From: Sphingomonas sp. LT1P40
GTDB lineage: Bacteria > Pseudomonadota > Alphaproteobacteria > Sphingomonadales > Sphingomonadaceae
DNA length: 64,000 nucleotides
Direction of reading: 5' to 3'
Assembly (NCBI RefSeq): GCF_036663835.1
Contig: NZ_JAXOJT010000001.1
Coordinates: 1,860,001 to 1,924,000 of the forward strand
Shown here: positions 26,660 through 34,717 of the stretch, in pieces
How the letters are laid out: every line of letters begins with the position of its first letter
Numbering within the stretch: position 1 is the first letter of the stretch
Notes under the pieces: model-generated
Databases searched by the model: none
Seen by the model: only the letters and a program-made list of their open reading frames with translations
Told to the model about the DNA's origin: nothing
Position numbers and translations under genes: made by a program

Positions 26660-27925
26660 ATGAGCGCGGACAAGCGACCGTTTGGCATCTGGACCGCGAC
26701 CGCGATGGTGGTCGGCGGGATGATCGGCGCGGGCATATTTCAGCTGCCCGCGCTGATCGCGCCCTATGGCTGGATCGCGGTCATTGCGTGGGTCATCAGC
26801 ATCTCCGGCGCGCTCGCCATCGGCTATGTGATGGCCATGCTCAATCGGGCGATCCCCGACCAGACGGGCGCGGTTGCGGTGACCGGCGCAGTCTTGGGAC
26901 CCGCCACAGGCGCGTTGGTCGGGTGGAGCTACTGGATTTCCAACTGGACCGCGGTGGCGGCGATTGCCGGATCGGCAGTCGGCTATCTGGGGGTGCTGGA
27001 GCCGTGGTTCGTGGCATCGCCGCTCAACAGCGCGATTGCGACGGCCGCGCTGATCTGGCTGTTCACCCTGACCAACATGGCAGGGGCTCGCCTGGCGGGG
27101 CGGATTCAGGTCGTGACGACCGTGCTGAAGCTCATCCCGCTGATCGTCGTGATCGGGATCGTGCTGTGGCTCGCCGGATCGGGTCGGGCGAGCGCACCGG
27201 TCTGGCCCGGCACCGGACCGGGCTATGGCGGGCTGACCGCGGCGGTGACGCTGACGCTATTCCCGCTGGTCGGCTTTGAAGCGGCGGGGCTGATTGCCTC
27301 GCGCGTCAGGGATCCGGCACGCAACGTGCTGCGCGCGACGATGATCGGCACGGCACTGGTCGGGCTGCTTTATATCGTCGTGAGCACGGGCATTGCATTC
27401 GGCCTTCCTGCCGACAAGGTTGCCGGATCGACCGCGCCGTTCGCACTGTTCGTCGAGACCTATTTGGGGAGCGGAGCGGGCAAGTTCATCGCTGCGTTCG
27501 CCGCGATCTCCGCGATTGGTGCGCTCAATTGCTGGGTGCTGGTGCAAGGCGAGTTGCCGCTGGGCATGGCGCGCGCGGGGCTGTTGCCGTCGTGGTTCGG
27601 CCGGGTCAATTCAAAGGATGCGCCGGTGGTGGGGCTAATATTGGCGAGCATCCTCGCCACGCTACTGGTCGCCTCCACCGCCGATCGGAGTCTCAGCAAA
27701 GCGCTGGAGTTTGCGATCCTGCTGACCACATCGTCGGCACTCTGGTTCTACCTCGCAATTTGCGTCGCCGGCCTGGTGCGCCGCGTGGCGCCAGTCCCCG
27801 CCGCGCTCGCTTTGCCCTTCTGCCTGTGGGCGCTGTGGGGCGCGGGGATCGAGGCAAGCGCATGGAGCCTCGCGCTGATGCTGACGGCGGTGCCGTTATA
27901 CTGGTGGGCGCGGCGAGCGACTTGA
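26660..27925 (+). CDS. APC-superfamily permease (basic amino acid/polyamine antiporter type)
   Basis: 421 residues, about 12 membrane helices. The first helix has MVVGGMIGAGIFQLPALIAP, the helix-6 motif is LFPLVGFEAAGLIASRVRDP, and ALNCWVLVQGELPLGMARAG is typical of the AdiC/PotE-like branch, which exchanges basic amino acids or polyamines. It starts 48 nt after the TonB receptor and is probably co-transcribed. Together with the two secreted peptidase-like enzymes of the locus it points to an amino-acid-containing substrate. Confidence 0.88.
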   Translation: MSADKRPFGIWTATAMVVGGMIGAGIFQLPALIAPYGWIAVIAWVISISGALAIGYVMAMLNRAIPDQTGAVAVTGAVLGPATGALVGWSYWISNWTAVAAIAGSAVGYLGVLEPWFVASPLNSAIATAALIWLFTLTNMAGARLAGRIQVVTTVLKLIPLIVVIGIVLWLAGSGRASAPVWPGTGPGYGGLTAAVTLTLFPLVGFEAAGLIASRVRDPARNVLRATMIGTALVGLLYIVVSTGIAFGLPADKVAGSTAPFALFVETYLGSGAGKFIAAFAAISAIGALNCWVLVQGELPLGMARAGLLPSWFGRVNSKDAPVVGLILASILATLLVASTADRSLSKALEFAILLTTSSALWFYLAICVAGLVRRVAPVPAALALPFCLWALWGAGIEASAWSLALMLTAVPLYWWARRAT

Positions 27926-27960
27926 CGCTGCGGTAACACGGTGGCATTGGCCGCCCCGCT

Positions 27961-28008
27961 ATGAACATCGTCCGCGCCACCAGCTATCGATATTACCGCG
28001 TCATCTGA
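27961..28008 (+). other. Possible 15-codon Tyr-containing leader frame
   Basis: ATG 27961 opens MNIVRATSYRYYRVI and stops at 28006. Three Tyr codons in four positions (TAT, CGA, TAT, TAC) are striking so close to an RNA with a Tyr anticodon. The ribosome site is weak. Right after it, GGGGCGATGTTGCG (28010-28023) recurs as GGGGCGATCTTGCG (28036-28049), giving a near-perfect direct repeat. It may be chance. Confidence 0.2.
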
Positions 28009-28114
28009 CGGGGCGATGTTGCGCGCCCCGGATATGGGGCGATCTTGCGTGAAATATTTCAGCTAAATTCCAGCATATCCGGTCGCTAAGCGCGCTCGCC
28101 CCGAACTTGTATTC

Positions 28115-28197
28115 GGGAGGGTAAAGCCAGTAGTTCTGGCAGCGGGACTGTAAATCCCGCCCTTCGGGGAGTGGAGCGTAACCACACCCTCCCACCA
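28115..28197 (+). tRNA. Atypical tRNA-Tyr(GUA)-like RNA with 8/4 fold
   Basis: 83 nt with an encoded CCA end. GGGAGGGT (28115-28122) pairs with ACCCTCCC (28186-28193), followed by A28194 and CCA. A 5-bp D-stem (GCCAG/CTGGC, loop TAGTT), an anticodon stem CGGGA/TCCCG with loop CTGTAAA (GUA anticodon, U33, A37) and a short variable arm CCC-TTCG-GGG follow. The T-stem is only 4 bp (GTGG/CCAC) with loop AGCGTAA. So the acceptor-T helix is 8+4, the D-loop lacks GG and the T-loop lacks TTC. G1-C72 and A73 fit tyrosine identity. Folded by hand. Confidence 0.6.
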
Positions 28198-34641: not shown

Positions 34642-34717
34642 TGGTGCCGCTTACAGGACTCGAACCTGTGACCCCCGCATTACGAATGCGATGCTCTACC
34701 AACTGAGCTAAAGCGGC
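34642..34717 (-). tRNA. tRNA-Thr(CGU)
   Basis: 76 nt on the minus strand. GCCGCTT pairs with AAGCGGC, the D-loop has AGTTGGTAGA, the anticodon loop TTCGTAA gives CGU (codon ACG), the T-arm has GGTTCGAGTCC, and the CCA end is encoded. This fits a normal bacterial tRNA-Thr. It lies between the amidohydrolase and PAS genes and is read leftward, towards the amidohydrolase gene. Confidence 0.96.

Follow-up and report, generated by a model that had tools for sequence, protein, structure and literature searches.

A phage-type tRNA-Tyr-like RNA downstream of a tyrosine leader ORF in Sphingomonas sp. LT1P40

An ordinary-looking intergenic stretch of the Sphingomonas sp. LT1P40 genome, within the 64,000-nucleotide segment of DNA analyzed here (the window), contains a real, unannotated unit. 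Its last element, an 83-nt tRNA-Tyr(GUA)-like RNA with an encoded CCA end (positions 28115-28197, plus strand), is best read as a phage-type spare tRNA-Tyr in a soil-type bacterium, a type that otherwise occurs mainly in phage tRNA clusters. We lean towards the view that positions 27922-28197 form one transcription unit, in which this tRNA stands under a tyrosine-reading attenuator that would respond to the loss of the normal tRNA-Tyr.

Structure and conservation of the tRNA-Tyr-like RNA

The minimum-energy fold of positions 28115-28197 is a cloverleaf with an 8-bp acceptor, a 5-bp D-stem closed by the loop UAGUU (28131-28135), a 6-bp anticodon stem whose CTGTAAA loop carries the GTA anticodon (28150-28152), a 4-bp T-stem with the loop AGCGUAA (28175-28181), and an ACCA end. 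Its energy of -40.6 kcal/mol compares with -27.75 +/- 3.11 kcal/mol in shuffled sequences (z = -4.1; 0/200 as low), in agreement with the 83-nt cloverleaf, the coordinates and the sequence given in the preliminary description. ARAGORN calls no tRNA at this position, Rfam reports nothing overlapping it at gathering scores or at E-values up to 10, and the RNA does not reach the gathering score of the tRNA covariance model RF00005; the only tRNA that ARAGORN and Rfam report in the window is a tRNA-Thr at 34642-34717. A tmRNA-like or T-box-like RNA was considered and set aside, neither being matched in Rfam. The host genome (3.47 Mb in two contigs, 48 standard tRNA matches) does possess the normal tRNA-Tyr(GTA) that had been expected elsewhere, at G000:C1:2257386-2257471 on the minus strand, where ARAGORN detects it. 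This canonical tRNA shares with the odd copy the GUA anticodon, the CTGTAAA loop, a long variable region, G1-C72, A73 and CCA, but its T loop is TTCGA and its D arm is normal.

A blastn search of 61 genomes returned one good relative, in genome G030 (91% over 90 bases), which adjoins citrate synthase at a site different from that of the window copy. Between the two copies, paired changes are found in the D-stem and the anticodon stem, and the loops are identical. The covariance model R1, built from both, matches 5/295 congeners and 7/397 genomes of a family sample, each count including the own genome; a weak congener match, L011, was on inspection not a copy. A T-arm pattern occurs in 9 GTDB contigs (5 of them from genomes already in the set) and in 17 IMG/VR contigs, and a looser pattern that leaves the T-stem free occurs in 38 IMG/VR contigs, 16 of them already known. 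The model R2 matches 4/114 genomes in the genus of G692 and, at E 0.001, 23/385 genomes of a class sample and 25/299 of a phylum sample, the large scans having been run with Infernal's stricter filters, which weak copies could escape. In the class and phylum samples, the own copy alone exceeds 40 bits; all other R2 matches are at or below 38.7 bits, and those that were aligned (L075, L076, L078, L079, and L099) resemble ordinary tRNA-Tyr. With the window copy as query, blastn against plasmids and phages returned nothing at E 0.001, phage records being reached only with phage-type queries.

The alignment A5 comprises 44 matches, 34 of them distinct, and omits the degraded copy L026, the truncated L047, duplicates, the cultured phages, L126 and L127. 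Among the 34 distinct rows, each of the four helices covaries. Of 782 cells, 98.7% form standard pairs and 123 carry double changes, and changes on both sides are seen in 16 of the 23 pairs, pairing and double-change values that 0/500 shuffles attained. A5 was aligned to a model already holding this structure, which favours it; a control with slid structures, which answers this point in part, left 42-49% of cells paired (maximum 49.1%). For an earlier count on 22 distinct rows, 11 rows had been removed beforehand (nine ordinary tRNAs, the truncated L047, and the degraded L026). The compensatory changes in all four helices of these relatives support the preliminary description of a structured, unusual GUA tRNA-like RNA.

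Its 8/4 fold calls for a correction. The seven acceptor pairs and the four T-stem pairs are kept, whereas the eighth acceptor pair is U-A in 30 of the 34 rows and unpaired in 4, never takes another form, and shows no covariation. For want of that support, the strict 8/4 fold was dropped as a defining feature, and "seven pairs plus U-A, followed by a four-pair T-stem" is the safer description. The D and T loops are as unusual as had been reported, but taking them as a sign against a tRNA is not supported, since the elbow contacts covary. The contact 18-55 between the two loops is A-G in 16 rows and G-U in 17, in an alignment whose related rows might reflect few events: the D loop UAGYU, the form with A found in the window copy, goes with the T loop AGCGUAA in 16/16 rows, and UGGYU goes with AUCG(U/A)AA in 17/17. 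In 33/34 rows, the D loop retains its second G and the T loop its C-G. The remaining A5 row, L020, has the D loop UCGGAU and a standard T loop, UUCGAGU. In the usual tRNA numbering, 18-55 switches from G-U to A-G while 19-56 remains G-C; the odd loops retain the logic of the tRNA elbow. The two elbow forms cross the settings described below, the leader-type copy L023 having the G-U form and six phage rows the A-G form. A phage tRNA in the IMG/VR contig L037 (2623-2699, minus strand), apparently tRNA-Ala (UGC) when read by eye, also has the T loop AGCGTAA, and this loop is therefore not confined to the Tyr family.

Among the distinct rows, the GUA anticodon and G1-C72 are each present in 34/34, A73 and ACCA each in 33/34. 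The looser viral pattern required GTA, and rows found without that requirement have it in 22/22 cases. GUA, G1-C72, A73 and CCA are presumably the tRNA-Tyr identity elements, and the family carries them; its members are GUA tRNAs whose acceptor/T arrangement is 7+1/4, and it is very likely a tRNA-Tyr family. Acceptor pair 3 is G-C in 32 rows, A-U in one and U-A in one, and G3:U70, the Ala element among the Ser or Ala identities of 8/4 allo-tRNAs, occurs in 0/34. The 8/4 allo-tRNAs and the selC* tRNA-Cys, as presented in PMC7609411, also have a 12-layer acceptor domain written 8/4 and unusual arms, but the present family differs from them in its invariable Tyr anticodon, A73, the absence of G3:U70 and an eighth pair without covariation. 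The label of allo-tRNA, which the preliminary description had proposed, is doubtful given the absence of G3:U70 and the constant Tyr anticodon.

Phage arrays and stand-alone copies

The family occurs in two settings: among the 60 loci examined, the array or phage type accounts for 46 and the stand-alone type for 14, 13 of the latter being distinct since L126 repeats L031. At array-type loci, many of which are near copies of one another, at least three other ARAGORN tRNAs lie within 2 kb in 42/46 cases, and ARAGORN finds no other tRNA-Tyr in the flanking stretch examined in 40/46. The odd RNA is thus usually the sole tRNA-Tyr detected in these stretches, which fits ordinary decoding and lends no support to the non-ribosomal use that had been suggested for it. 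None of the 14 stand-alone loci has an ARAGORN tRNA neighbour in the flanking stretch examined. The odd tRNA itself is overlooked by ARAGORN in 57/60 loci.

Among cultured phages, R2 reports 91.3 bits in Rhodobacter phage RcXuper (L123, OP186293.1), 88.1 bits in Erythrobacter phage vB_EliS-L02 and 81.7 bits in Sinorhizobium phage Phosso (L125, PV764938.1), no feature being annotated at any of these three sites. A copy lacking CCA scores 68.1 bits in the Bacteroidota phage Calle_1 of Cellulophaga (L124, 595-679). In RcXuper (1501-1677), the odd-fold tRNA-Tyr(GUA) precedes an annotated normal tRNA-Tyr(GUA) by 1 nt, so that the two kinds stand side by side. Phosso contains two tRNA-like matches with a Tyr anticodon (1501-1583 and 2816-2906), both unannotated and ARAGORN-negative. 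In Calle_1, an annotated tRNA-Ser begins within the copy and overlaps it; this annotation may be wrong. The phage tRNA-Tyr genes that counter retron-Eco7 or Septu in T5, SP15 and T6 likewise encode tRNA-Tyr(GUA) in tRNA-rich regions, according to PMC11555353 and PMC13096335. The odd family fills the same slot in the Rhodobacter, Erythrobacter and Sinorhizobium phage arrays, but differs from the tRNAs described there by its 4-bp T-stem and its non-TTC T loop, and the window copy differs further in being bacterial and located behind a Tyr leader.

The copies L020, L024, L026 and L028 lie within bacterial tRNA clusters; of these, L026 (1501-1583 of a Sphingomonas formosensis contig) is a degraded copy whose acceptor is broken and whose CCA is missing. 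A leader-type copy is also present on the 22.9-kb IMG/VR contig L045, which is filed as viral, although one neighbouring gene looks bacterial, being FecR-like by eye. In a midpoint-rooted FastTree of the 34 rows, the 11 leader-type rows cluster among phage types with weak support (~0.85), and all 11 share the acceptor strands GGGAGGGT/ACCCTCCC. In the window, the flanking genes encode an amino-acid permease and an FAD oxidoreductase. Among the other flanks searched, stand-alone copies are flanked by genes for citrate synthase, acyl-CoA dehydrogenase, CobT, ribosomal protein L25 or an FMN dehydrogenase, and another by a MoCF-type protein and ribosomal protein L1; the flank of L017 gave no Pfam match. 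The system is the 250-bp unit of leader ORF, hairpins and tRNA rather than the adjacent genes, which differ among genomes. The suggestion that the locus might house an undescribed system with the RNA at its core holds in spirit for this unit, and not for the neighbouring protein genes.

Leader ORF, hairpins and promoter box

The elements upstream of the tRNA, a leader ORF and hairpins, had been overlooked in the preliminary description. Upstream of every distinct stand-alone copy (13/13) lies an ATG-started ORF of 14-15 codons, which ends 70-118 nt before the tRNA. In the window, this ORF (27961-28008, plus strand) encodes MNIVRATSYRYYRVI and ends in a stop codon, with the Tyr codons TAT, TAT and TAC among its last seven sense codons. 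Two to three Tyr codons lie near the leader end in 12/13 loci and a single one in 1/13 (L127), and the last Tyr codon stands 3-5 codons before the stop. The leaders end in SYRYYRVI or SYRYYRVN in five loci, and elsewhere in SYYYLVG, EYYYPAN, EYYYLVV, AYYYPVI, FYYCRVA, FYYRLVI, HRYPYAA, or the single-Tyr HRYRSAR. A leader with at least two Tyr near its end is found in 12/13 stand-alone loci, which are related and do not represent 13 independent events, versus 9/3900 shuffled upstream regions; it is also found in 1/46 array-type loci (Cellulophaga, in AT-rich DNA). A 22-mer leader pattern, with one mismatch allowed, occurs in 4/295 congeners, exactly those with a leader-type tRNA; it was derived from these same sequences and is silent on other leader types.

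Three segments follow the leader stop on the plus strand: A (CGGGGCG, 28009-28015), which starts directly after it, B (CGCCCCG, 28024-28030), and C (TGGGGCG, 28035-28041). B can pair with either A or C, and the two pairings are mutually exclusive. Across the loci, the segments begin about 0-5 nt past the stop, and their variants preserve both pairings (GGGGCG/CGCCCC/GGGGCG; CGTCCC/GGGACG; GGCGCGC/GCGCGCC/GGCGTGC). A:B and B:C were detected by script in 12/13 loci; in L023, which the script missed (the helix runs into the stop codon), GGGGTG/CGCCCC/GGGGTG can be read by eye. The hairpin score was reached by at most 2/200 shuffles in 10 of the 12 loci and by 9/200 each in L018 and L019. Segment C is not followed by a U-run in the window, nor, by eye, in any of the 13 loci, and a scan of the window unit returned no terminator-like site with a T-run.

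A candidate -35 box, TTGAC, lies at 27922-27926 (plus strand), 39 nt before the leader ATG, and overlaps the upstream permease ORF at its stop codon. The same motif is present 35-39 nt before the leader ATG in 13/13 distinct leader-type loci, and in three loci it occurs again immediately past the leader stop. A consensus scan of the window unit reports neither a full sigma-70 promoter nor a consensus -10 box. In the spacers of L021, L022, L025 and L031, an upstream CCCTCCC-like stretch, which other loci including that of the window copy lack, could pair with, and hide, the 5' acceptor strand. The observed spacer-acceptor complementarity was reached by at most 7/300 shuffles in these 4 of the 13 loci, by 21-47/300 in four more, and by at least 186/300 in the other five, including the window copy; a general acceptor-hiding element of this kind was rejected on this test.

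The unit has a leader with the regulating codons and mutually exclusive hairpins after its stop, both hallmarks of an attenuator, and lacks the further hallmark of a U-run terminator. The leader uORFC-8-2 of cysS in Rhodobacterales, as described in PMC8632094, is similar in that alternative hairpins follow a short leader ORF in which the regulating codon is frequent; the window unit differs in having a tRNA gene instead of an enzyme gene downstream, and in that its last hairpin has no U-run. A Tyr attenuator in front of the tRNA gene is likely.

A proposed circuit and its alternatives

In the circuit that we propose, transcription would begin at the leader AUG or close to it, as judged from the TTGAC spacing. 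When charged tRNA-Tyr is plentiful, the ribosome would reach the leader stop and cover A, B:C would form, and less downstream RNA would be made. When charged tRNA-Tyr is scarce, the ribosome would stall on the Tyr codons that lie 3-5 codons ahead of the stop and leave A free, so that A:B would form, B:C would be blocked and the spare tRNA would be produced. The size of a ribosome is the basis for A being free at a Tyr-codon stall and covered at the stop. Charged by TyrRS, the spare tRNA would restore Tyr decoding, including that of the Tyr codons of its own leader, and thereby close a feedback loop. The missing T-run terminator and U-run after C, which leave B:C no evident terminator, and the missing consensus sigma-70 promoter count against this circuit.

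The trigger would be the destruction of the normal tRNA-Tyr by defence or toxin nucleases such as PtuAB. According to PMC11555353, PtuAB of retron-Eco7 depletes tRNA-Tyr, and a phage tRNA-Tyr counters this depletion; phages were likewise rescued by the ordinary tRNA-Tyr of E. coli when a strong promoter drove it. In PMC13096335, Septu is described as cutting the variable loop of tRNA-Tyr, and the T5 tRNA-Tyr is stated to resist retron-Eco7 owing to its variable loop, while the T6 tRNA-Tyr is itself cut by Septu. A nuclease-replacement role for the spare tRNA is plausible on these grounds. That its odd fold and variable region would make it hard to cut is a guess: since the E. coli tRNA-Tyr rescues and that of T6 is cut, a higher dose can be enough by itself, and an unusual structure does not necessarily confer resistance. 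We hold only tentatively to the full picture of a self-regulating emergency tRNA, a captured phage tRNA-Tyr that would be switched on when the normal one is lost, could not be cut, and would be switched off on recovery.

Amino-acid leaders classically answer amino-acid supply, and the leader and hairpin evidence would apply equally to an attenuated tRNA-Tyr that responds to tyrosine starvation instead of tRNA loss. Such a tRNA might be an isoacceptor, differing in charging or modification, that shifts the tRNA pool when tyrosine is low, or it might feed stringent signalling in its uncharged form. The cysS leader of Rhodobacterales (PMC8632094) offers a precedent. We nevertheless consider this reading rather unlikely: with the amino acid in short supply, more tRNA would be expected to lower the charged fraction, and the same RNA occurs in phages with no such leader before it, which points to use during infection. 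The proposed circuit suits tRNA loss better than a lack of tyrosine because extra tRNA cannot cure a tyrosine shortage. The phage arrays, which employ the RNA as a Tyr tRNA, are also consistent with a captured phage tRNA-Tyr that raises Tyr decoding constitutively, the leader and hairpins then being features of processing or stability and not a sensor. The lack of a terminator and of a promoter consensus, together with the acceptor-complementary spacer elements of a few loci, would agree with this. It is unlikely, however, as the Tyr codons are conserved although other leader residues diverge, and the hairpin segments hold their position after the stop codon across loci.

The non-canonical T and D loops, and a tRNA that ARAGORN fails to see in nearly all loci, could also suit a decoy or regulatory mimic of tRNA-Tyr that binds TyrRS or a nuclease outside translation. 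This is improbable for an RNA that conserves GUA, G1-C72, A73 and an encoded CCA, whose elbow contacts covary, and which takes the Tyr place in the large tRNA arrays of phages. That the RNA is a tRNA pseudogene in decay, or what is left of an integration site, is scarcely credible; L026 is such a degraded copy, but the other copies covary and have an intact CCA, and for the window copy a pseudogene is ruled out by the covariation in its relatives.

A literature search of titles and abstract openings, with subscription journals largely outside its reach, found no description of an 8/4-like phage tRNA-Tyr family, nor of a tRNA gene behind a leader peptide. Since ARAGORN-based annotation of phages misses these tRNAs, claims of a "missing Tyr tRNA" in phages need review. 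Ribosome-mediated attenuation of a tRNA gene through the codon that this tRNA reads would represent a novel type of circuit. If the proposed circuit is correct, the ribosome itself would monitor the supply of one tRNA, and a differently built copy would replace the lost one, making the unit a host-side counterpart to the anti-defence tRNAs of phages and a natural means of translation repair under nuclease attack.
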